Positions 25,684-55,021 of a DNA stretch of 64,000 nucleotides are shown in pieces; position 1 is the stretch's first letter; each line of letters opens with the position of its first letter. Position numbers and translations under genes: made by a program. Under the pieces are notes generated by a model. The model was not told the origin of the DNA. It ran no database searches and saw only the letters and a program-made list of their open reading frames with translations. Source of the stretch: Fennellomyces sp. T-0311 (taxonomy: Eukaryota; Mucoromycota; Mucoromycetes; Mucorales; Lichtheimiaceae); the NCBI GenBank assembly GCA_025266875.1, contig JALLLT010000024.1, positions 547,188 through 611,187 of the forward strand, written 5' to 3'.

Positions 25684-27085
25684 TTACACACCATCCGGTT
25701 TGACGGGTGCCAATACAAAACGTGGTGCAGGTCCCTGATGCTGATCTGGCTTTGTTGCGCTATATAGTGGGCCAGAATTACTGCCGCCGGTATCCAAAGA
25801 ATGTGGAACATCTTGCTGAATTCCTGGATCCACCGAATGTGGTACACTGTGTTTAGAATATTCGGGATCGTGAACATGCGGTACATCTTGACGAATTCCT
25901 GTGTCCATTGAATGTGGGACACTGTGTTGAGGATATACTGGGCCTTGCAGGGACGGTACATCAGCTATTAAAAAGATTTCAGTGTATTGTACTCACATAC
26001 TTTGTCACTGCGTACTTACTGTAGAAATTCGACATGGGTGGTGGCTGAACTTGTGCTATAGTTATTGTTTAGTACCAGCATTTCAACAAGGCCACATTTT
26101 TACTCACCAGATATAGGTAGCGCAAGACCTCCATTTGTTGGCGGAGTACCTGATTCCAAAAATCGTTTGCTGGATACTTTTTCTTGCTTTTGATTCTTTC
26201 GTCGCTTGTAGAAACAAAAAACAACAGGCACAATAATAAATAAACCGACCTATTATAAACTGTTATTACATTGTGCGTGAACATGCTTAATGCATACGTA
26301 CGCCACCAACACCTCCAACCACGGCACCTGCGATCACTCCAGGACTGGTACCACCACCACCACCGCCATCCTCAGATCCATCATCCTTGGACGCATCGCC
26401 GCTGGAAGTTTCGCTACTGCTACTGGTAGTACCACTGCTGCTTTGCGATTCTGATACACCTGGGGTAGTTGAAGATGAAGGACTGTTTGAAGAAGTAGGA
26501 GGAGTCGAAGTTACTGGTGTTGCTGCTACAGAGGAAGATCCGCTTTCTACAATAAATAGTGACATTAGGCAACTGTTGTACAGATTTAGTCGTCGTTTTC
26601 TGATAACGTACGCCCCGAACTAGAGCCTACGATGGTAAAGTAAGCACTATACGCTGTAAGTCCATCCGAGCTAAATTGAATAGCATCTTTGAAGCGGGTA
26701 TATAAGTATATTGAAAGAAGCGATTTATATGTGAACCTACAGGCCGTGCCGCTTTCGATGCTCGTTGGAATCGACCAAATATACGAGCCACTCGAGGCTG
26801 GAACGTTAGTGGCAATGGTCGTCACCACTCGTAAACTAGTTGATGACCCTGTCATCAGAACTATCTGACCGATTGTTGTAACGGTAGGGTCGATCCAAAG
26901 GTAATTCGGAAGTTATTAGAAATACGAGGGTAAGTCCATTGAAAAAATCGTGATATATACCATTGTAGAGTTACGTCACTACCAGCGTTATAAACAGCAC
27001 CCGAAAGGGGATTAGTAACAGACAGCAATTGTTGTGCCGAAGCAATTGCAGCAAAGAATGCTATAATAGCGATGATAAACTTCAT
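25684..27085 (-). CDS. Array gene A: KNH-domain type I membrane protein with VPH-repeat tail
   Basis: 352 residues if all introns are removed. Exons: 26961-27085, 26741-26895, 26612-26686, 26302-26546, 26108-26249, 26020-26055 and 25684-25964; intron phases 2,1,1,0,1,1. Signal peptide MKFIIAIIAFFAAIASA. Then a Kre9/Knh1-like ectodomain (VTNPLSGAVYNAGSDVTLQW; NVPASSGSYIWSIP) and a Ser/Thr-rich stalk with an acidic GDASKDDGSEDGGGG end. The transmembrane segment is GVIAGAVVGGVGG|VGLFIIV, then PVVFCFYKRRK (about residues 184-214). The cytoplasmic tail of ~138 residues has VPH repeats (HSVPHSMDTG, QDVPHVHDPE, HSVPHSVDPG, QDVPHSLDTG) and ends APRFVLAPVKPDGV. Oddity: intron 1 needs a TG instead of an AG acceptor at 26896-26897 to stay in frame, so this copy may be mis-spliced or decaying. 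Function unknown; a wall-facing sensor or adhesin is plausible. Confidence 0.72.
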
Positions 27086-28625
27086 TGCTAGCAGTAAAAA
27101 AAAAAGGGGAAAAGAAAGAAGACCTTGGAAAGGTTGATTCAAACCCCAATTGCCTTCTGTGCAACGATTGTGCTATGTTCCGCATTCTCGGGCATTCAAG
27201 GTAGTTCATTGGCGCGCCATTGTGTCGTACAAGTAATCCAACACTTTCCGATCACATCTTTTTTAAAAGAAAGGCATCGTTCCTAAACGTCAGGATCAGC
27301 TTTAAGCAATGTACTAATTGCAGCTGATTTGATTGTTTTTGTTGAATTTGAAAAAAGTAATGGACTTGACGGGTTTCACATGTGCGTTTCAAAAGCCTTA
27401 ATACTTCATAAGTTAGCTGTACTCTGGCACTTGTTCCTCCGAGAATATTTATACATCGTACCAAAGTCTAACCTTTTCCTTATTTGTGCTCGAAAGCACA
27501 AAAAACGTTCATGGGGCTTACCGTCATATTTTATTCTATGCTTTCCAGTTGTAGTAAAAAATACTTCCATATTTTTCCATACACTCGAATTTTGCTACCT
27601 CAAAGCAAACCGGTGATTTATTTCAATTCACTTAGGCGGGCGTGAAGTAGCTGGGCCTGAAGGCAACCGAATGAACAACCGAGCTGGTTTCCTTGCCTCG
27701 CCTAATCAACCTATAATGTGTTGAGCTACGCTATGGAAACCGGTGATCCATGCTATACATTATCCTTTTAAAACTGTGGTTTTCTTCGTGTTGTGTAATA
27801 AACGACTTCCAGATACACATTACGTTGTGCATTTACGGCCACATACGCACTCTACTTTATTTTAATAGCAATGACTCAACCTGGGCTTGGAGCCGATCGA
27901 ATGTTCATATCAGTGAAGTGATGAAAGAATAGCAGGTTATATAAGTGAAAAATAAAATCAGTTCGCCAAGAATTTGCTTCCTTTTCCTTCTTTGGCCTTT
28001 GCAATGAGCGAGAACCAAGCGGTAAGCTGTTCATTCTCATGAATAATATGACATTCAACTGATCAAATGCGTACATCGATTGCTTCAGAGCACTACCCCC
28101 CCCTTCGTAGCTGGTTAACCTGCAGTGGGCAGTGGGCTGGCCTGACCAATGTAAGTTTGAACCTCTCCTTATGCATGTATGGCATGTGTCTTAATACTTA
28201 TGACGCGGTATCCACACGTGCTTGTGGTGTGTAGAACAATGTATGTTATGCACAGTCATACAGAGAGAAACAATTTACTGAAGCTCAGACATATGATACA
28301 GGTCTTAAGCTTTTCTCTCGTTGATTATAGAATTCTACAACTCTATGTTCCACTTCGTATGTTGTGTTTTCTTTCCTGAGGTACATCCTTTTTATTAGCG
28401 ACATCAACGACAACGTCATATATTCCGACGATATGTAATACGGGGAATACCCTCCCCCTTCGTCTTCTTTGTATGCATTCATTCGACGAGATTAATACCT
28501 TTGGCCACAAATTAACGAATTATATTAAATTTAAAAGCACTGTAGCGTTTGGAGCCATGTAGTATAAGGTCAAGCATTTCCGTAAATTATCGGTGACTAT
28601 CCTTATGCGTTGCCGGGAAGCTTCT
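27086..28625. other. Intergenic region between array genes A and B
   Basis: About 1.5 kb, AT-rich. Short ORFs only, none with KNH, stalk or tail features. Left end is the promoter of gene A. Confidence 0.5.
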
Positions 28626-30065
28626 TTAACCGTGGTAATTGGGGCTGTCATAACGACTTGGCTCGGTCTCAAGCGTGTGAGGAACATGCTGGCGACCATA
28701 GTATTCTGGATTTACAGAATGTGGAACCTGTGATGGATATTCCGTTTCTGCTGAATGAGGAACATCTTGACGTACATAATCCATCGAATGTGGGACATCA
28801 TTTCGATACTCCACGGTTTGGGAGTGTGGTACATCAGTATAGTATTGCTGATCAGGTTCTAAAAGATAAACATTAGCACAACAATGTAACAGGAAAACTT
28901 ATTACTCAACTGTAACCAGTTGAAGGTGGGACATATTGTGCGGAGTGATAATGCTCTTGGCCTGTGGCTATAAAGTTCCTATTTTAGAAAAATTCACGAC
29001 AAAAACGTTTCTATGCACTTACTGATCACATAAGGCGGTACAAAACTTCTGGTTTGATACGACTCTTCTGCGGTTGGGCCCGTATCCTTGCTTTCAGCCC
29101 CAGAATTGCTTCCGCCTTGTTCTTTCTTTCCACGGCGCTTATAAACACAGAACAAAACACCAATAAGCACAATAAGACCGACCTATATAATGTTATCAGT
29201 AAAGTTGGTATATCTGTCGATTTTTCTGATTATTTACCCCACCGACACTGCCAACAGCAATACCAGCAATTGCACCTGTTCCAAGACCATCATCGTTGCC
29301 TCCACCGCCGCCTGGTGTCGAGGTTTCATCTGCATGTGAACTGGTTCCAGTTGGAGAGCCGGGTGGGTTTGATGCAGTGGCAGCGGTTGAAGATCCAGAT
29401 GTGGTAGCTGATGGGGACGATGGGCTCGGTGAAGCACTAGATGACGATGAACGAGGAGGTGGTGAGCTTGTTGGTGGAGCAGCAGAAGAACTTGGTGGAT
29501 TAGATGATGCTGGAGCTTTTGAAATAACGTTAGATTAACGGTGCGTAACCCAATCTGCTTAAATATACCATTACTAGGCGATGCAATTGTAAAAAAGCCA
29601 TCCATCATATATCCATTGGGAGCAAGGTCAGTAGACTTAAATAGGACTTTATCTAGCAATGCAATCATAAACAATAAGTATATATTCTTTAGAAAAAGCC
29701 TTCAGTACAACTTACATATGTCACTGTCTAATGGCGTAGTCAGCGTAGTAGGGACTGACCAAGTAAAGCTTCCACTAGCCGGATCGATGTTTGTTCCAAT
29801 CGTTATAACTTTCGTAAAAGAACCGAAAATCAATCGCATGAGCTCAATGTCCATGGTGGCAGTAGTAGTTGTCCTTTCAGAGTTATTCCATACATGAGTT
29901 TAAAGGAAACAATTGAAATTTTGATAGCATTGCATATACTCACTGCCAGGTGATGACAGCGTCTTGTCCGGCAACAAAAACGCTATCCGAGTTAGGTGAT
30001 GTAATCGTTATTTGGGCCGATACAGCTCCAATGAATGCAAAAATAAAAGCAGTAATAATATTCAT
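28626..30065 (-). CDS. Array gene B: KNH-domain type I membrane protein with five VPH repeats
   Basis: 363 residues. Exons: 29944-30065, 29716-29873, 29569-29652, 29238-29515, 29023-29182, 28911-28967 and 28626-28858; phases 2,1,1,0,1,1. Signal peptide MNIITAFIFAFIGAVSA. KNH-like domain (ITSPNSDSVFVAGQDAVITW; NIDPASGSFTWSVP) and a long Ser/Pro/Thr stalk. The transmembrane helix is GAIAGIAVGSVGG|VGLIVLI, then GVLFCVYKRRG. The tail has DVPHSQTVEY, DVPHSMDYV, DVPHSAETEY, QVPHSVNPEYY and HVPHTLETE, spaced 11-14 residues. It ends ETEPSRYDSPNYHG, without the C-terminal box of A, D and E. The intron 6 donor is the less usual GTTGAG. A TATA box lies at 30153-30160. Role unknown; the regular repeats suggest binding sites for a cytoplasmic partner. 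Confidence 0.82.
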
Positions 30066-31220
30066 AACTGCACGCTTTCTGGAATAAATTACAAAAGAAA
30101 AGAGAAAGATCATCACTCACGATCCTGCGCCTCTTTTGGGATTATTCTCCCAATTTTATAACCCCGTGTACTTTTTTCCTTACTTTCGCCATTCAGTCCA
30201 TGTGTAACCACTGGATTTTGTAATTCATTATTGCTAGCTTGTAAAAAAACCATGCAATGAACAATTTTATGGCAAGGTGTTTCAAAGACTACGTCGTTTG
30301 AGCGACAATAGAAGCAGTCAATATACAGAATATTTTCTAGTCATTGGATGTGTACAACAGAAAAACTTGTCTTGACTTTAGTAACGTATACACATCTACC
30401 CTATCTCGTCACAATACGATTAAACATACAAACGGTGCGTCATGTGTACACGACGGTAAGTTTAGGTGCTATAATCTGACTTCGTATAAGCTTAAAAGAA
30501 ATGTAATTAACATCACCTTGTCATTCAGTAAATCTATTATAATCAAGGGAATTCTATGGCTCACCCGTATATACTCTGATCCCTTTAAATGCTAGTGTTT
30601 AAACTTTTTGAAACCGTACAGTAATAATCCTTCCTTGGGACCTTGGTTGTGTAACGTAGTGCCAAACTTAGTTTTGAGTTGTACTCGTCTAGGATCTCCA
30701 TTCCAGCGCGGCAGGTCGAGCCATTGATAAAACGTCGGAGACCATATCAATGCAATTAACATTAACGTTACCAACTTTTTCTTACAAGCAATGCACATTG
30801 ATTTACAGATAAGAATATTTCCAAACGAATTCACAGAATATAATATTACAGCCACAACGATATCAGTATTTGGCTGAGGCAAATTCTAAAAATAAGGTGT
30901 TTACAAATAAGGTATGTAGAAGCTCTCGATTCAGAAATGGAAACTTGCCGGGCCGGATCAACACTGTCCCAGCAGATTTTCTCATCGGCATCAGAAAAAA
31001 AAATTCATGGTCTCACTCTATTTTAACTATCAGTCACGTATGCCGAAAACTGGTGCTTTACATGACATGTCTCCAGATGAAGTATAGCTACGAGGACTGC
31101 AAATTAAAAACTATTTTTTTCATAAGTGTAAAGACACCATTTTGGAATGAAAAATATATATTACACTAACTTTGCAAAGACATTATTATTATTTACAAAT
31201 AGTAAACTGAATTTTATCTT
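30066..31220. other. Intergenic region between array genes B and C
   Basis: Holds the promoter of gene B. A minus-strand frame at 30592-30882 lacks an upstream ATG and has no recognised homology. Otherwise nothing seen. Confidence 0.5.
30153..30160 (-). promoter_or_regulatory. TATA box (TATAAAAT) of array gene B
   Basis: 88 bp upstream of the ATG at 30065, followed by a TTTCTCTTTTCTTTT leader. Confidence 0.45.
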
Positions 31221-32714
31221 TTAGCCAAAAGGAGATCGTGCGTGCGGTGGGTGCGGTGAATCTTGGGTGTGTGGAATCTGACGACTAATGTATTCCACAC
31301 CGGCAGAATGCGGTACTTGATAGACTGGGTGTTCTGCGCCCATAGAGTGTGGAACTTGATGGCCTGCTGAATAAGAGTCCGTACTTACAGAATGTGGGAC
31401 ATCGTGAGCATATTCTGGACTCATTGAACGAGGAGGCACATTGCTCAAGAATTGTGGCTCGGTAGTCACTAAAAGTGGCGTTAGAACTATCAACAAAGGC
31501 TATCGTTTTCCATCTACTCACTGAATACCGCAGGAGGAGGGGGAGAATATTGCCCAGGTTGATCTGAATTTACAGGAGCATGTCTTTAGTATCCAAGTAA
31601 ACAAATTTCCTTAGAACATGATGCTCACGGCTAACATATGACGGGGTAAATCCTCTGGTCTCAGGAGACTGGTTAAAGTTGTCGTGCACTGGAACAGGAG
31701 GGCTAGGTTGACTTTCTAGCGACTCCTCTTTTTCTCGTCGCCGTCGTCTATAGACGCATGGAATCACTATCGCGAGAGCAATGAGACCAACCTACACCAT
31801 TATGGCAGAACCGTTTATATTGTTAGCACATATAGATTTTTGGATTACAGCAATCAAGTACTTACACCAGCAACACCACCCACTACAACGCCGGCAATAA
31901 CTCCTGGACTTAGTCCATCGTTATCATCACCATCACTGTCAGATGTGTTGCTCGTCTCGCTAGGATCGTCTCCACTTCCTGTTGTCACCGGAAGCTCACC
32001 CTGGGTGGGGACACTTTGTGAAGGGGATGGCGTTGGCGACTGTGACGGAGTGGGTGACGAAGTCGATCTTGACGATGAACTGCTGCTCGGTTCTGGTGGC
32101 GGTGATGATGATGGAGGTGGCGCAGAGGAGGACGAAGGAGCTATACGAGGAAATTATTAGACTTTCATAATTTCGACAGCTGTACATTTTTCCGATGAAG
32201 TACCACTAGAAGAGGAGGTTGACGAATTGATAACTGTAAATCGTGGACTGGCTGCGTAAAGTCTTCCAGGTCCTGCAAAGAAAATAATGTCTAAAAAAGA
32301 GAGGATTTACCAGAAGGTTATAACCAAAATCGTATGTAATTATACATTGTAGCTTACAGTCACTGCGAGTTTCCATGTCATCGGGGAGTATAACGCTGTA
32401 GCGACTGAGTGAAGCATCCACGTTTGTGGCTATCATGAAAACACCGGCAAATACGTTAGGATCCGATGCACTTTTAAGGAGATTGATCTCCGGTATAACG
32501 TCCAAAGTGTTATCAGTTCGGCTCCTATGCACAAGGATCGGTTAAAGATGATTAGGATGATTGAGCGTCCGCTTTTTCGATTCTAGCATTACCAAGTGAC
32601 AGTCAGAACGTCACCAGTGTGGAAGACTTGGCCATCGACTGGTGAATTTACTTGTATCTGCGCAGTACCAGTGGCAACAATTACCGCTATGATGACAATG
32701 ATGAGAAGCATCAT
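31221..32714 (-). CDS. Array gene C: KNH-domain type I membrane protein with VPH repeats
   Basis: 367 residues. Exons: 32593-32714, 32358-32524, 32204-32290, 31866-32140, 31629-31791, 31522-31563 and 31221-31468; phases 2,1,1,0,1,1. Signal peptide MMLLIIVIIAVIVATGTA. KNH-like domain (VNSPVDGQVFHTGDVLTVTW; TNVDASLSRYSVILPDDMET) and a Ser/Pro-rich then acidic stalk. The transmembrane helix is GVIAGVVVGGVAG|VGLIALA, then IVIPCVYRRRRREK. The tail has proline-rich YSPPPPAVF, then DVPHSVSTD, QVPHSMGAE, QVPHSAGVEY and QIPHTQDSP, spaced 12-15 residues. It ends in HARSPFG, without the PRxVLxPVKPDG box. Same layout and intron positions as A and B, so it is a tandem duplicate that has diverged strongly. 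Confidence 0.82.
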
Positions 32715-34287
32715 TATTTATACAAAGAGAAAGAAGACGGTAAACTAGAGGAAAAAGCCTGATCCTGGGCTTGGATCCTAAGTACACTGAAAAAGTGAAT
32801 TCTATTTCGCGCCGTTAGATCGTACAAATATGTGTAACAGCTCACCGTTGCAAACCTCAGCCATGTGCTCTTTGCAACAAGCAAGGCAAAGTCAAATACT
32901 AGCAGATTGTCGAATTTGTGTGTTCCAAACGTAACTAAGATACGCCGTCTCACATAATTGGTTAATCTAGGGTGCTGTGCCGCATCATGAATTCGTACGT
33001 TTTGACACATCAAACAACAAATAGTGCTTATTATTAAAGTTATAGCGATCAACAATTATACTTTAGATACATAAAGCGTTATTGAATATCGCCAGAAGAC
33101 TCCCCTCATTACCTCTGTTCAACGCTTCTATGCCGTCGTTATAATTTAATTCCTAGCAGGATTTTAGAGAAATGGTCACAAGTGCCCAGAACATCGTTCG
33201 ATCCTAAGCTCACATGACTGCGGAGTCAGAGGATAGGTGCTAAGCCGATACATCGAACACAAACTTCTGGTAATATCCTTTTTCAACCTACCCAGGAATA
33301 TGATGAAGAACTGGGACGAAAAATCGGATGTCACAATTGATGAGCTGTGCATAACCAGATGGCTGATACGGCTTAAAATCTGTTATTTTTAGCAGAACTG
33401 AATTAAGTACTAAGGCGTTTTAGTGCATCTGAATACGCTGTAACAGATCCCCTCTGTTGTTACTCTTGTGCTATAAACTCCCTTTTGACTTATCTATGGT
33501 CTCTGTATGTACTTCCTATTCAATCTTACCACCCATCCTCTCATCACAACCTGCTCTTAAGCACAGATATCCTTGGCCAACCCTATGTTGCATTTGATTG
33601 TACGCTTTGCACATTCTCAGTCTTCTTCTGCGTACAAAACCCCACCGTAAACGCTGTTTCTATTATACAGTGCAGCTTACACAACCTCAATCTCTGGCTC
33701 GGATCATTTCGAAATACCTCATAAAGTTGTACTGTGCATCCGGCGCTCCTCGTTGTTATTGTCGTAGTTAGGAACTTATAAATACCCCCAAAGAATCGGA
33801 TGAAATAAAGCAGTTATCCATGTTTTCGTAATTCACATCTTAAATATCCTGATCACACCATGGCATAGGCTTATTCAGGATGCTAGATTCTACTTTTGGT
33901 GAACCCACCCTACCAATTTCTCTTCTTTTAACTTATATTGTTGATTCTAATCCACATAAGCATCCACCTTGCAAATAATTTTCTTTTACAATAACGTATA
34001 TTCTGCTTGCTCTACTACTTAATTGCAATAGGATGTCACTTGCCAATACATAAGTGATGTAATACATCATTTGATGAATACCCATCACTGTAATAACTTA
34101 TTGGCCGCATTTTACCTGTTATACAAATCAGACCACCACGCGCCTACCGTGATGTTATTTTACAAAATTTTGGTAAGTGTGAAATTGTCAAAGGGTAGAG
34201 AAAAAGTTGTGCTCAATGTAAAATTATGCATTGCTATCTGTCATTATGTTGTAAATGTGGATATAGGAGTACGCAGTATAGTACTTG
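32715..34287. other. Intergenic region between array genes C and D
   Basis: About 1.6 kb. Promoter of gene C at the left. No ORF with family features. Confidence 0.5.
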
Positions 34288-35635
34288 TTATAGGCCACCA
34301 TCAGGTTTCACGGGCCTTAACACCATCCGTGGAGTATCGTCATCATTATTATGAGATGCTGATGAGGTTGAGTTGCGTTCTTTCGCCAGGTCCCCAGGAA
34401 CCAGTGTTGTATCTGCTGTGTTAGTTGGAGACGTAGGATATTGGGTGGTCAGCAAATTATGATTGGGTAAGGGAGCACTGGTGTTGTAGTGATCGTACTG
34501 TGGCTGTGTCGGCGCTATTTGTATGTGTACTATGTGAAAAACTAGTGTCTGTAACATACGCAGTCGAGACTGTGCTTACTGGTATAGTTCGCAGGGAAAG
34601 CTTGATATTGTCCAGGCTGTTGATAGCCACCGGGGCCTGACGCTATATAAAGAAGCTCTTGAATGCTTGCTACTAAATTAGTTCCAAGATACTTACTGAC
34701 GATATATGTAGGTACGACGTTTGCAGTAGAATATCCGCCTTGAGGTGGAGGAGGATAGCCGGTATTTGTATTTATAACTTGTGATACTTCTTTTGGCTGG
34801 CGCCGCCTGTAGAAAAGGAATGTAAACAAAGCAGCAGCAATGAGACCTAACTTTGATGATCATGCGCGGTATCTTTTGTGAGTACATTTCTTCGTAGTAT
34901 ATGAATGGCGAGATACTTACTCCACCAACACTGCCAACCACAGCGCCTATAATAATTTCTGTGCTCATACCACCACCACTCTCATCATCTCCACTTGAAG
35001 TCGATGTATATGTATAAGAAGGATAGGTATAGGAAGGTGTGTATGGTGTATATACGGAAGTTCTTGTTGTGGTGGGAGGAGATGAAGTCACTGTATAAAG
35101 CAGTGCTATTAGCACCCTTCTACACGCAAAACATCATAATTTATGTAGACTATACCGCCACCAGGACCTCGGATACTGAAAAGACCAGCGCTAGATAAAA
35201 AATTCGGTCGCCCATTAATAGAGAACCGAATGTCGTCTACAGTATAGCATGTAATGTGAGCGACTATAGGAATGAAACAAACGTAATACTAACATGCATC
35301 TTCTTCAATTATTACACCAGTACTGGGAACGCGCCAGACATAACGACCAAGTCCAGGATCAACGTCTGTTGCAATGGTCAACAGTACATCTATTCCAGTA
35401 CCACCATAATATTGGAGTTCCATCGATGATATAATATCAATTCCTTCCTGATAGCTATATCTCTGATAAGAATTGGCTTTTAAAGCTCGTAGTTTTCCTA
35501 CCCTGGCCAGCTCCAGGTGATGATGGCATCTTCTCCAACAGTGTATGCGGTACTATATGTTGGTTCATGGATCGTCAACTGCGCTGAAACAATAGATACT
35601 GCAAGAGTAAATATGAAGACTGTGGACTTTATCAT
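34288..35635 (-). CDS. Array gene D: KNH-domain type I membrane protein, Pro/Gln/Tyr-rich tail without VPH repeats
   Basis: 334 residues. Exons: 35502-35635, 35294-35454, 35156-35236, 34921-35090, 34697-34850, 34580-34642 and 34288-34529; phases 2,1,1,0,1,1. Signal peptide MIKSTVFIFTLAVSIVSA. KNH-like domain (TIHEPTYSTAYTVGEDAIIT; TDVDPGLGRYVWRVP). The stalk is short and Tyr/Pro/Thr-rich (YTPYTPSYTYPSYTYTSTSS), unlike the Ser stalks of the others. The transmembrane helix is IIIGAVVGSVGG|LGLIAAA, then LFTFLFYRRR. The tail has PPPPQGGYSTANVVPTYIV and GGYQQPGQYQAFP but no VPH motif. It ends TPRMVLRPVKPDGGL, the same terminal box as A and E. The box is therefore independent of the VPH repeats. 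Confidence 0.8.
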
Positions 35636-35775
35636 CGTAAAAACAATATGTAAAGAAAAAGAAGTAAAAAGAGCCTCTTCTTCCTGGGGTCAACCTGATG
35701 ATTTAGCTGAGTGGTCTTTCTCAAAAATCTATTTTCGTCGTGTAACTACTAACATGATCCAAAAGTTATACTCAA

Positions 35776-36046
35776 AAGTGCAGCGCCACACTTTATCAAT
35801 TTGCCCCTTCGTTTTGTCAAACTAAGCTGAACCATACAGTTATGGAGATGATATACTCCATATATTATAACTCTTTGTTGGTCTAATGCTGAAACGCATA
35901 TTTCGATCAGATCAAAAACTGATCTACTGGCAAGCCAATCCACATGTAAAACTTGTGTAACCGCTGAAAAGTAACCCGGGGAAGTCATATGATGTTTTCC
36001 ATAGATAGCTAGGTGAATCGCCATAATAACGAGATGCTGTCAAACG
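35776..36046 (-). repeat. Diverged duplicated segment, copy 1
   Basis: Resembles 37850-38115 over its whole length on the same strand. Shared words include the GAGATGCTGTC end and GATCAGA...ACTGAT. A minus-strand frame is open for ~90 codons (35749-36024) in this copy but broken in copy 2, so it may derive from a gene. Family not recognised. Confidence 0.55.
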
Positions 36047-37849
36047 TATTTCCCATGAATGCGACCCGGACGTTTTCCTGCCGGTGATAGTGTATCTTAT
36101 GGTATGCATCCTATGAAGCATCGACTTTGTTTCAACAATGTCTACGGACATACCCCTCAATATTATTGAAACTTTGATTTGGCTGTTTTGGAGCCCTTCG
36201 GTTTGACCATTTTTACAGCCGATCTCAGTAGATTCTAGTTCTTTGTCACCCACAACCTAAATTATGACCATTCTATGCACTTTTTTTTTTATGTTTGGGT
36301 TTTATGGCGAGCAATTTGCGCTTACTATTTGTAGCGGCGGCATTCGCTGTTCCGTCTTTTCCTTGGCTATGGAATTGAAGTGTCTTGTTATGCATTTAAC
36401 TAATCACTTGTAGAGGAATACCACTTACCCACTGACCCACATTTCGCTTCCATCAGTTACAATTCTTGCAAATTGCGAAGGTCCGTACTATTGGTCCGAT
36501 ACCAAAAAATTGGCCTAGAGAGCATATCTGGGCTCGTCCCCGAATACTTTTAATTGAAGCGCGAGTAGATTCACTAGATTTTATAGTCACTCATAGGCAA
36601 CGTATTCTCATAACGGTTGATCGACACCACTCTTGATGACCAAAGGGGTTATTGCCGGTAGCACATGGCAAATTGTCTATGCTCATGGTTGCTTAGTCGT
36701 TCTAACACAAACAATTGATCAGGAATTTGTTCAAAGTGACGTTTGTAAACTCAATTTACCAGCCTTGGACGTCGGTGTAAAAGGCCAAAGGAAGAAAAAG
36801 ATATTACAAGGGCCTGCTTTTATATCATTTTTATCGATGACAACTTTCTCCTTTTTTTTTGTCGGTGTGTAAGATAAGCTTCACTGCAAAGAAGCTTGTG
36901 CTCTCATACTCGACTGGCTGGAGCTGCAAAGGAGTTTTTCCTTATTCTTAAGGGAAGACTTATAATTGACCGCCTTTTGTCTTCTCACATGTCATCTACT
37001 GAACACCTGTGCCACAGAAAGTAGATGAACAGGTTCCATTCATTAATTGATTCAGCCACCCTCGTCGCTTAGTAAGTGTCTGTAACCTAATGAATGCATC
37101 ATAAGCTTTATGCTATTATTCAGGCTTGTGTGTGTTGTGAGTAGTGAAATGAATAATCTAAATGTAAAAACAAGATGTCTTCGTGGTTTAAGGAAAGAGG
37201 AGGCTATCTACTTTTCACCAATGATACTACATTGTTTGCTTGTACTTTTTGGCCGAATGGTTATGCTGATCGTTGTGTTAGTTTGACCTGCACGTTTGAA
37301 AGCAATATAGTCAATACGCCAAGTAATTGTGATCTTCTAATTTAACTATTAACTTTAATTGTTATTAGATGGGATGAGAATAGTCAATTATTGAAAAGGT
37401 CATTTAAATTGTTATTTCAAGCGATATACGTATTCGCAGTTTTTGGTATGGCTGTGTCAAACAGCAGAGCTTGCACAGATTTCTGAACCGGATGTATGGG
37501 TCGCTGAAGCAAGCATGCCAGTTTTTGCAAGGTAAGGTCAGAGGCTTTTCAGGTATGTTTATTTTCAGTGGGTATTGCAAAATTCGATGTATGTAGTCCC
37601 ATTGCAGTTACGCATTCTTTACATATTTTTGAATGACGATACAGACGGCGCTGCTTATTTATCAAGCGACCTGGTACAGTTTGTGAAGACGTCAAGCGTA
37701 GTTTAGCATTCATAAGTTGCTTTGGTGAGACATGGAAACGAGTCCGGCGGTTCATTTGTTTGCCTTCAGGCCTAATTCTTAAGCCCATCAAATCATACTT
37801 TTCATTTTTTGTTAATTATTAGCACAGTCAAAAGCTACATTCAAGAAAA

Positions 37850-38115
37850 AAGTACAGCCCCACGCTTTACTAATCTTCCTTCAACTTATCAAATGTAAAG
37901 TAGGATTGAGCCACACAGTAAACGGTATAATTTCTCCACCGATTTTAATTCTTTGCTTCAATACTGAATGCAACTTTCAGATCAGAAACTGATACGCTGG
38001 TGTACCAATCTCCACATATAAATTTTGGTATAACCGTTAAAAAATGTCTTTATGTATGATATTTTCCACTGATAGTTATATGAGCTGGCATGACAGCGAG
38101 ATGCTGTCGAACATG
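37850..38115 (-). repeat. Diverged duplicated segment, copy 2
   Basis: Counterpart of 35776-36046, with in-frame stops. It looks like an old local duplication followed by decay. Confidence 0.55.
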
Positions 38116-38645
38116 TGCACTAATAATCATAGCAGCGGTTGGTAACTATGACAAGCAAACTTTTCACAGCAGCATGGAATACTTCAGATCACGCGACATG
38201 ACCACCAGAATATTTATACATTCATTGATTGGAGGAAAGCCGCCTATTTCTCGTAGTAAAAAATAACCACTTCGTGCCCTCTCCTAAGCAGCAAAATTTT
38301 GAAGAATTTATGTTGATGCAATAAAACAAGACTGTGAGATATGGTACTGAAAAAGTGTATAAAGTATGTGCATATCAGTTATAGGCTATCTATTTTTCTG
38401 CCCGGCGACTCGTACTTTAGAAACTGGAGTCTGATTTTGCTTTAAGAAACGACCCATAGGATGATGATTGTCGGTGAGTCATGGATCGTGACAAGTGATA
38501 GTATAAAAGTCCGTCATACAGAATGACAATTCAGTGGTTAAAGTGCTTTATGGCATTCTCAATTAAAAAGAAGGGTTTATAAGTATATCTAAGATACGTG
38601 AAATATATATACAACCGCCAGAAGATAATTGTCACAGACAGGCTT

Positions 38646-39729
38646 TTATGCTCCATCTGGTTTGACAGGCTTTAAAACCAATCGTGGTGCACTACTGCCA
38701 TGATTATCGTTTGTTATATTAAGTGCGTCTGGCTTTCGCGCACTGTAATATGCCCGTGGTACGTGCTGTATAATATGAGTGTTTTCTACAGTATGTGGTA
38801 CTTGCTGTATAATGTGCGCGCTTTCTACGGTATGTGGTACTTCCTCGTAGTATGTCGCAGCAGCCTGTGTATGAGGAACCTCCTGATGTAAAGTTTTATC
38901 CTCCAATCCAGGTAGAGTCTGCTTGTAATAAGGCGTAGTATCCAATGCATGCGGGACTTCCTCGCGATAATAAAAGTCTGACCCATGTATCTGGGATCCC
39001 ACTACCGTGCTGCTCGCTTGACTGTTAGGTGCCTGCGAGCCATTATTAGCTGATCTTTGACCTATCGGATTTATCAAATGTTAATACCTATAAACATATG
39101 GTCTGTTCGTCTTCCACAGCACTTACTATCAGTGCGACGATAGGAAGTAGGCGCTGCAGTTTTCTCGGCAGTATGACGAGATATCCCATTTTCAGTTTTG
39201 CTTATTCTTTTTTTGTGAGCAATTTTTGCGTATGATACACTGTTTTGTGTTTTGTTCACGTTTTGATTCCTACGCCAGAGTAGTACAATTGCAGCAATTA
39301 TAATAGCGACCTGTGATATGTAATACGAGCGTCAGTGGTCATTGCAGCTGCAAATAGATAGTATACCATACTCCGACGACAGAACCCACCGCAACAGCAG
39401 CAATGATACCAGGGCTAAGGCCTATGTGTTCATGATCATGCGTAGAGCTTGAATCATCGGTTGAATCCTCAATTGAAGTTGGTGCTGCTGTTGGAAATGA
39501 GGGATTCCAATCATTTGCGGAAGGAAAGTTGTTTGCTAAATTCACAATCGACTGTATTAGTCCTGGTTTTATGTGGTGTCTCCGCCGCAGTAAACAACTA
39601 AAACTTACCGAGATCCGTAGGAAAATTAGACATAACGGCTGAAAAAACTGAGCTGAAGAATTCATCACGTTCATCTGAATAGACTGCAACGGTGTGTATA
39701 GCGATGATAATGATAATAGATTTCATCAT
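38646..39729 (-). CDS. Array gene E: ectodomain-less type I membrane protein with VPH repeats
   Basis: 294 residues. Exons: 39609-39729, 39372-39535, 39127-39310 and 38646-39061; phases 1,0,1. Signal peptide MMKSIIIIIIAIHTVAV. Only ~75 residues of ectodomain follow and there is no KNH domain: the two exons that encode it in A-D are absent. The transmembrane helix (GIIAAVAVGSVVG|VAIIIAA, then IVLLWRR) still has the phase-0 intron inside it. The tail is the longest of the array: basic KIAHKKRISK, then EVPHALDTT, EVPHTQAAATYY, EVPHTVESAHII, QVPHTVENTHII and a degenerate HVPRAYYSA. It ends APRLVLKPVKPDGA. This looks like a tail-only relative that could compete with or modulate its siblings; that is inference. 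Confidence 0.78.
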
Positions 39730-47987: not shown

Positions 47988-48783
47988 ATGAAGTCCATTG
48001 TCGCCGCCATCGCCGCTCTCGCCTTCGCCGTCGTCTCGGCCCAGGAACAAGGCATTGTCTATGTCACCGCCCCTCTTGATGGTGCCACTGTCACCGCTGG
48101 CGAGCCCTACACTATCAGCTGGTACGCTCATGAGACTCGGTGCAATTCCCTGTCAAGATGCTAACCATCCTATCACTCATATAGGCAACAACCCACGGTT
48201 GATGTCATCACCCAGATTGAACTTCGTCAGGGTGTGTCCACCAGCCTCCAGCCCGTCTTGACCATTGCTTCCAATGTCGATGCCTCCGAGGGCTCTTACG
48301 TCTGGGAAGTTCCCGCTGATATCGCCCCAGGCAACAACTGTAAGCCTATTGATCTATCCGTCATTTCGTTGCCATGCTAACGTGATTAATGTCATGTAGA
48401 TGCTTTGGTGTTCGGTACAAACCCCTTCGCCTATAGCGGTACTTTCAGCATTGAAGGTGGTAGCGGTGGTATGTTATCAATGTGATGTGCAAACGGACAA
48501 GAGAAAGCTAATCTGATTCGTTTTAATAGCGAGCTCCTCGGCTGCCGCCTCCTCCAGCGCTGCCCCTAGCTCCAGCGCCAGCTCTTCTGCTGCTTCTAGC
48601 TCTGCCAGCAGCAGTGCTGCTTCGTCGAGACCCGCATCGACCTCGTCTGCTTCGCCTACTGGCACTAAAACCCAGAATGCTGCAGATGCTGAGGAAACTG
48701 ATGAAAGTGCCGCTGTGAAGTCGCAGCCTGCTGCTCTTGCCGCCCTCGCCATTGCTGGTGTCGCCGCTGTTGCCATGATCTAA
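47988..48783 (+). CDS. Gene F: GPI-anchored Kre9/KNH-domain cell wall protein
   Basis: Small Ser/Ala-rich surface protein of the Ser-Thr-rich GPI-anchored (Kre9/Knh1-like N-terminal domain) family. Exons: 47988-48121, 48185-48339, 48400-48468 and 48530-48783; phases 2,1,1; 203 residues. Signal peptide MKSIVAAIAALAFAVVSA. KNH domain VTAPLDGATVTAGEPYTISW, NVDASEGSYVWEVPADI and FAYSGTFSIEGG. A Ser/Ala stalk follows, and the C-terminus PAALAALAIAGVAAVAMI fits a GPI-attachment signal. Codons are mostly C-ending and the promoter has a strong TATA, so it is probably highly expressed, unlike the AT-rich array genes. The three introns fall at the same places and phases as the first three in A-D and G, showing common descent. 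Confidence 0.92.
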
Positions 48784-53779: not shown

Positions 53780-55021
53780 ATGAACCTTTCTCTTACACTA
53801 CTTTTAATCTGTGTGATGCTGCTCATTGTTATTATTATCGTCCATGTTATATCCTTCGTTTCAGCTCAAATAGTAGTCACCAGACCAACGCATGGTTCGA
53901 TCTATACAGCTGGAGAGACGGGCCTTATCATTTGGCGTTGGGAAGAGTAAAAATTCTATCCAAGCGTATCATAGTACATACGATCCATGCTAACGGAAGT
54001 TATACAATTCGCTGATAGTGGCGTCACTCCTCAGGAGGATGCTTTATCAATAATTGAATTGCGTAGGAAGATTAATGACAATGGCGACCATATTGTTATC
54101 GGTATCATTGCCGAAAACGTTGATCTCAACGATGGTGGATATATATGGTCAGTTCCGGCTGACATTACGGTTTTCGGTCAACATTGTGCGTTTCACGTAC
54201 GAAACATGCTGTTTATATTAATCCTTTCATTCGATAGACGATGTCGTTTTTTCATCTCCTAGTCTTCCAAGTTCATATGCAAGTGCAGGGTACTTTTCCA
54301 TTGAGGCGCCACATGAGAATGGTATATAATATTATGTCAAGTGCAACGATAACGTTCTTTAGCGTTTTCTAATTCTTTCAATAGCTACTTCATCTGTTGC
54401 ATCTACGAGTACAGCTTCTGATGAACCGGCGACTTCTAGTAGCACCGTAACTGAAAGTACTTCAGGTCCTAAAGCGACATCTCCAACACCAGACGAGAAA
54501 AGTGAGGGTAATAGCGCAGGGGTAATTGCAGGAGCTGTGGTAGGCGGTGCTGTTGGTGTGAGTATAGCATTTGAAAAAGAGAATTATCGCATATGTTAAT
54601 CACGATATTGCAATTACGTATATTCTATAGTTTGGTCTCATTGTGGGTGCAATTGCACTCTATTGTATTCGCAAGCGTCGGCAAGCAAGAATTATATATG
54701 AAAACGAGTTAAATGAGGGCTACTCTGACGGTGGAAAGGATCCGAATTATGCGACGGAGTTCATACCTCCATATTTTACAGGTACTTTTGTAAATATGTG
54801 ATTGTCGAGTTTCAATGTATCCATGTCACTGAAAATGATTTCATACAGAATCAGAACAAAACAGCAAGGATGCTGTACATAGCCTTAGTGCATATCACAC
54901 AAATCAGGAAACTCCAAAAGTAGTTTATACAACCACCTCGGATAAGACAGAGGTGTCATCACATCCAAATGAAGAGGGTGCCAGTGATGTCCCAAGATAT
55001 AGGATGACACCAGTTAACTAA
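53780..55021 (+). CDS. Gene G: KNH-domain type I membrane protein
   Basis: 304 residues. Exons: 53780-53946, 54019-54185, 54238-54321, 54385-54557, 54631-54781 and 54849-55021; phases 2,1,1,0,1, matching array genes A-D. A long hydrophobic signal sequence (MNLSLTLLLICVMLLIVIII...). KNH-like domain (VTRPTHGSIYTAGETGLIIW; ENVDLNDGGYIWSVPADI) and a Ser/Thr-rich stalk. The transmembrane helix is GVIAGAVVGGAVG|FGLIVGA, then IALYCIRKRRQ, with the intron inside. The tail of ~90 residues is acidic, lacks VPH repeats and ends DVPRYRMTPVN, a possible degenerate form of the PRxVLxPVKPDG box. It lies outside the array and on the other strand. Convergent with the ADAM gene, 207 bp away. Confidence 0.82.

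Follow-up and report, generated by a model that had tools for sequence, protein, structure and literature searches.

The final 64 kb of contig C100 of Fennellomyces sp. T-0311 (positions 547188-611187 of 611187; genome 45.6 Mb), a fungus placed by database taxonomy in the Mucorales, Lichtheimiaceae, carry an array of genes for membrane proteins with Kre9/Knh1-like (KNH) ectodomains. This stretch is referred to here as the window. An original prediction, made from the letters of the window, had proposed five same-strand genes, A to E, encoding single-pass type I proteins. Rebuilt from the DNA exon by exon, the five gene models are paralogues on the minus strand that share this architecture, and the array stands as observed and is larger than first described. 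The features of the array and its neighbours are as follows.

25684..27085, minus strand: gene A, 352 amino acids (aa); signal-like N-terminus, KNH domain, stalk, helix and VPHS-repeat tail with the C-terminal motif PRFVLAPVKPDGV
25684..25725, minus strand: C-terminal motif PRFVLAPVKPDGV and stop codon of gene A
26250..26301, minus strand: phase-0 intron within the helix of gene A, at a position common to kelch-type genes
26896..26960, minus strand: first intron of gene A under the aligned model, where TG stands in place of the AG acceptor (GT-AG alternative 26925-26861)
28626..30065, minus strand: gene B, 363 aa; KNH domain, stalk, helix and tail with five VPH[ST] repeats and an internal KPDQ, without a PVKPDG end
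31221..32714, minus strand: gene C, 367 aa; KNH domain, stalk, helix and VPHS-repeat tail, without a PVKPDG end
34288..35635, minus strand: gene D, 329 aa; diverged KNH domain, short stalk, helix and a tail ending PRMVLRPVKPDGGL
38646..39729, minus strand: gene E, 294 aa; helix and VPHT-repeat tail ending PRLVLKPVKPDGA, no KNH domain
47988..48783, plus strand: gene F, from open frames; KNH protein with a hydrophobic C-terminus and a glycosylphosphatidylinositol (GPI)-anchored look, no cytoplasmic tail
53780..55021, plus strand: gene G, six exons; weak KNH domain, stalk, helix and a tail ending PRYRMTPVN, start codon shifted upstream by eye

Genes A to D each have seven exons separated by introns of 47-74 bases, the phases of which (2,1,1,0,1,1) are identical in all four; the first intron shifts its position by as many as three residues from gene to gene. 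The seven-exon structure first proposed therefore holds for A-D and gives way to four exons in gene E. Gene G, with intron phases 2,1,1,0,1, is a sixth member that lay beyond the five, otherwise real, genes of the original prediction. The public protein P0001 (BJV82DRAFT_658256, Fennellomyces sp. T-0311, 379 aa) includes the whole of gene B at 100% identity plus 16 N-terminal residues, and its splicing, predicted independently, is the same. All introns of the A-E models are GT-AG except intron 1 of gene A, where the aligned model requires the TG acceptor if the domain's spacing is to be preserved; the splice finder used here favours the GT-AG alternative, which swaps 12 domain residues after a conserved Trp. 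A search with the helix and tail of gene A among 5.8 billion proteins gave 36 candidates and none at E <=10, not even gene A, which implies that gene A is absent from that database or annotated otherwise. Telomere repeats were found on neither strand of the final 3 kb of the window.

The plan originally read for A-D is borne out by Pfam, profile comparison and hydropathy: a signal-like N-terminus, a KNH-type immunoglobulin (Ig)-like ectodomain, a Ser/Thr/Pro stalk, a Gly-rich helix and a tail. The Pfam domain Kre9_KNH (PF10342) is matched above cut-off in genes A (8.4e-17), B (3.2e-8) and C (2.1e-5), and a profile built from seven KNH domains picks up gene D (E 1.7e-21, probability 99.4; the highest-scoring of 40 shuffles reached probability 3.3, E 0.013). 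Gene G falls under the Pfam cut-off (E 0.018), and the Pfam scan found no KNH domain in gene E. Two related genes lie on contig C152, one of which (C152:93082) is barely above the cut-off at 24.7 versus 24.6 bits. Exons 1 and 2 of this gene, the domain of gene F and the first-exon start of gene G were joined by eye. The topology of A-D was derived from 19-residue hydropathy and reading; in A-D the N-terminus is hydrophobic and a second such segment lies further in, and gene E shows the inner segment only, its N-terminus being signal-like by eye alone and its ectodomain short. Counted from where the best hydropathy window ends, the tails of A-D are 136-140 residues long, and basic residues follow the helix.

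The tail had been described as a structured repeat, a description that structure prediction does not support. The P0001 model is of low confidence (mean predicted local distance difference test score, pLDDT, 49.9), with a beta-rich ectodomain and nearly the whole tail below 50, so the tail is better read as a set of short linear motifs. A PDB sequence search with P0001 returned four matches, none inside the KNH domain except at its last residues.

Searches with the tails of genes A and E led to places on contigs C46, C143 and C152 that end in PVKPDG, a motif present at the C-terminus of A, D, E and the two C152 genes. Across the 45.6-Mb genome the PVKPDG pattern has 19 exact matches versus 3 for a reversed control, and a chance origin of the motif was rejected. 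All but one of the 19 are in frame with a stop 1-9 residues after the motif; the exception, C113:349738, is followed by 99 residues and was dropped. The remaining 18 tails lie beneath different heads: 11 kelch ectodomains (called by tblastn with P0014, P0023 or P0026), one with kelch remnants, four KNH heads, one with none (gene E) and one unassigned (C1:946638). The four KNH heads are those of A (above cut-off), D (by profile), C152:93082 (just above cut-off) and C152:75478 (below it). Several automatic models overrun their upstream neighbours (C46, C106:962422, C143:62181, C143:65990, C150 and C152:75478), and those used later were trimmed by eye. The remnant-bearing locus (L068, C150:141897-147200) combines a PVKPDG tail with scraps of a kelch domain only and looks decayed; the automatic model fuses it to an upstream gene that bears a putatively F-box-like sequence. 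Kelch-type clusters with the same tail, comparable to the array of the window, occupy C106:934765-962438 and C143:13966-65990, with four motif matches each, and around C143:69200 there is one more kelch-type tail, which lacks the exact motif. The C-terminus of gene G, PRYRMTPVN, resembles a shortened PVKPDG motif.

The kelch-type proteins extend beyond Fennellomyces. Six kelch-type models, each chosen for its motif, were combined into a profile; a database search with this profile (E <=1e-5, 7999 candidates scored) matched 20 proteins, 15 of them with a complete tail. Dropped from the 20 were P0029, which lacks a kelch domain, and four proteins with models that break off ahead of the tail or shortly into it, namely P0012, P0016 and P0028 from Fennellomyces and P0020 from Phascolomyces. 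PVKPDG occurs at most 15 residues from the end in 12 of the 15 complete tails, and KPDG occurs near the end in 14, the two without the full motif being P0015 and P0019; P0022 has KPDI. Ten of the 15 come from other genera (Phascolomyces articulosus, six; Zychaea mexicana, two; Circinella umbellata, one; Circinella minor, one), and a taxonomy look-up places Phascolomyces articulosus, Zychaea mexicana and Circinella umbellata in the Lichtheimiaceae. In the structure model of P0014, a protein that carries the source name galactose oxidase, the propeller is predicted with confidence, a helix spans 412-443 and most of the tail lies below a pLDDT of 50; the best matches of the model among solved structures are kelch proteins. 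A KNH-type member outside Fennellomyces was not found among the 7990 candidates of a search with gene B or the 7999 of the kelch profile search, a result that speaks for those candidates and shows absence neither of KNH-tail proteins from other genera nor of kelch-type proteins from other families.

Common descent of the helix is indicated by an intron. Each of the eight array-type genes (A-E, G and the two on C152) and each of the 11 kelch models in which the helix is resolved has a phase-0 intron at the same point of the helix, following a run like GAVVGSVAG; C150:142213 and C1:946638, which have no sound model, were left out of the count. The public proteins P0010-P0013, corresponding to four kelch genes, read through the helix as in the rebuilt models. 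An intron generic to Gly-rich helices was considered and rejected: among six other Gly-rich-helix loci matching gene B, four are uninterrupted (L027, L029, L031 and L033) and in L032 and L077 the pattern was not found. Tail profiles built without the helix from eight array-type and 23 kelch-type tails match each other with an hhalign probability of 96.9 (E 1.8e-10), and with the final 14 residues removed the probability is 70 (E 4e-5), versus a best of 0.5 (E 0.12) among 60 shuffles. KPD occurs in 6/8 array-type and 23/23 kelch tails (shuffle expectation 0.28 and 0.87), and VPH[ST] in 4/8 and 2/23 (0.10 and 0.06). A shared tail beneath different heads in Fennellomyces is thus well supported at the level of sequence.

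These observations are the basis for the reading that we favour, with confidence slightly above even: the array would belong to a larger Lichtheimiaceae family, made up of plasma-membrane proteins that cross the membrane once and carry either a kelch or a KNH head on one common membrane-tail module, the disordered tail docking a common cytosolic partner. Several results weigh against it. Genes B and C lack a C-terminal PVKPDG and gene G ends in TPVN, and the B, C and G tails taken alone match the kelch tails no better than shuffles do (probability 0.3, E 0.22). The tail match is partly circular because the motif selected 11 of the 23 kelch and five of the eight array-type tails, and the kelch search profile itself contains the motif. 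The public protein P0012 (C106:654070), unlike the rebuilt model, stops without the motif. On the side of the heads, gene D has no Pfam KNH match, its domain being seen only through profile comparison; C152:75478 is under the Pfam cut-off, and neither C152 locus matched the ectodomain of P0001 in tblastn. The splice finder was trained on A-E themselves plus four long open frames of the window. In a helix-tail tree only 1/28 inner branches is firm, the KNH tails form one group in 0/200 bootstrap trees, and the KNH rows needed four changes; the number and direction of swaps are therefore not fixed by this tree.

The ungrouped KNH tails and the failure of B, C and G to match on their own are also what would be expected of two unrelated families with tails convergent on the same short motifs, as the heads are unrelated and the motifs are short. 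Convergence of this kind would have to account for an intron of identical phase and position within the helix in both kinds of gene, and for a tail match that persists after the last 14 residues are removed, and we regard it as very improbable. What can be read directly from the sequences is that the helix with its intron and the tail motifs are shared, that the heads are of two kinds and that the genes cluster in arrays.

The coupling of a KNH domain to a membrane helix had been proposed as special to the array. Genome-wide, PF10342 is matched above cut-off at six places, namely gene A, gene F and four others, in a search that may miss intron-split genes. From the frames read, gene F and the KNH proteins on C128 and C124 have a hydrophobic C-terminal stretch, no tail and a GPI-anchored look, and the KNH protein on C140 looks secreted. 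The gene on C113 (L001, C113:244018-247254) encodes a protein with a KNH domain, a stalk and a helix, followed by a long tail that is rich in Gln, Tyr and Asn and lacks the array motifs; its phase-0 helix intron lies three residues beyond the shared position. Because this gene has both parts, a KNH domain ahead of a helix also occurs outside the array, and the proposal of a special coupling is not supported. The search with gene B returned nine matches, one of which is gene B itself and the others weak; two of them, P0005 and P0008, have a similar order of parts and no Pfam KNH match. At about C152:99840-100340, within L073 (C152:97800-103800), the open frames show KNH exons that no helix exon follows, which may mark a broken member.

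Divergence within the array is considerable. Among A, B, C, D and G the ectodomains are 25-36% identical and the helix-tail parts 28-48%. The proportion of nonsynonymous differences is lower than that of synonymous differences (pN < pS) in 20/20 pairwise comparisons, and the synonymous divergence (dS) ranges from 1.4 to infinite; with dS saturated, the divergence looks old and a selection test is powerless. Diversifying selection, as first suggested, leaves no sign in these genes, in comparisons that have no power to detect it. The accompanying suggestion that the proteins are self/non-self recognition receptors under such selection draws on the clustering of diverged paralogues on C100, C106, C143, C152 and C1; given pN < pS throughout and saturated dS, we consider it improbable.

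Under the favoured reading of a common membrane-tail module, the head would bind a wall polysaccharide or an outside protein, and the long Ser/Thr/Pro stalk would keep the head in the wall or span it. Docking of a common cytosolic partner would fall to short motifs of the disordered tail, namely KPD[GA], the VPH[ST] repeats and, at the C-terminus, PVKPDG together with a few residues ahead of it; different outside cues may thereby be coupled to one internal response. Outside-to-inside signalling is in this sense something that we infer. A more specific form, in which the proteins are modular receptors whose unrelated heads have been exchanged on one helix-tail module, with the same adaptor docked through PVKPDG and new specificities gained without rewiring inside, is put forward tentatively, at somewhat less than an even chance.

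The tail motifs lend themselves to a different account, in which the proteins do not signal and act as wall linkers or adhesins: the head grips wall material and the tail motifs serve only sorting and turnover, KPDG being a trafficking signal and an [LP]PxY-like motif recruiting a ubiquitin ligase. Motifs of the [LP]PxY type recruit Nedd4/Rsp5-type ubiquitin ligases. The strict motif occurs in 11/23 kelch tails versus 1.05 expected from shuffles, and a looser [LIVPFT]PxY in 6/8 array-type tails (seven occurrences versus 2.24 expected, 2/500 shuffles as high); in addition, no catalytic domain lies above the Pfam cut-off in A-E, G or the two C152 genes. Against this, the motif definitions were picked after the tails had been viewed, strict [LP]PxY is present in 0/8 array-type tails (0.91 expected), and the repeated KPD and VPH motifs are left unexplained. 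A role restricted to sorting and turnover is accordingly rated as rather unlikely.

Comparison with characterized systems sets the array apart from each of them. Kre9/Knh1-like proteins (PF10342) share the N-terminal Ig-like domain with A, B and C above cut-off, with D by profile, and weakly with G and the C152 genes; the array proteins differ in adding a helix and a cytoplasmic tail. A review describes Kre9 and Knh1 as soluble proteins of the periplasm and names KNH1 among the GPI proteins too, and for the Zygomycota the analysis that it reports found homologues only of KRE6 and SKN1 and none of KRE9 (PMC7389562). The KNH domains of this Mucorales genome are at odds with that passage, if the domain is what is counted.

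The Ser/Thr-rich stalk of the array proteins recalls that of the Wsc/Mid2 sensors, and A-D further resemble Wsc1 and Mid2 in having a signal-like N-terminus, a cytoplasmic tail and a single helix. The Pfam matches (E <=1 for A-E, <=0.5 for G and for the pair on C152) included neither a WSC nor a Mid2 domain, and the tail motifs look different. Wsc/Mid2 sensors are described as having a long wall ectodomain, a single helix and a tail proposed to bind Rom2 (PMC6685044). By analogy with these sensors, for which a route through Rom2 is proposed, the array proteins would couple different cues to one response without being of the Wsc or Mid2 families. Kelch membrane proteins of the Lichtheimiaceae such as P0014 have the same helix and tail motifs and, in the Fennellomyces members, the same intron point, and they differ in carrying a propeller where the array has a KNH head. 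The polarity landmarks Axl2 and Rax2 are likewise single-pass proteins with a large ectodomain and a cytoplasmic tail.

The family had been called apparently undescribed, and this agrees with the open-literature matches listed, none of which, from titles and abstract starts, describes it. The string PVKPDG is absent from the 5.39 million open-access papers searched. To our knowledge, surface sensing in early-diverging fungi has been little studied beyond analogues of the yeast sensors. A tail motif common to two kinds of ectodomain offers a short, testable bait for a cytosolic partner, and PVKPDG provides a genomic mark by which the whole family can be listed. If the heads have truly been exchanged, these genes would represent fungal receptor evolution by domain swapping, with a logic comparable to that of plant and animal receptor families.

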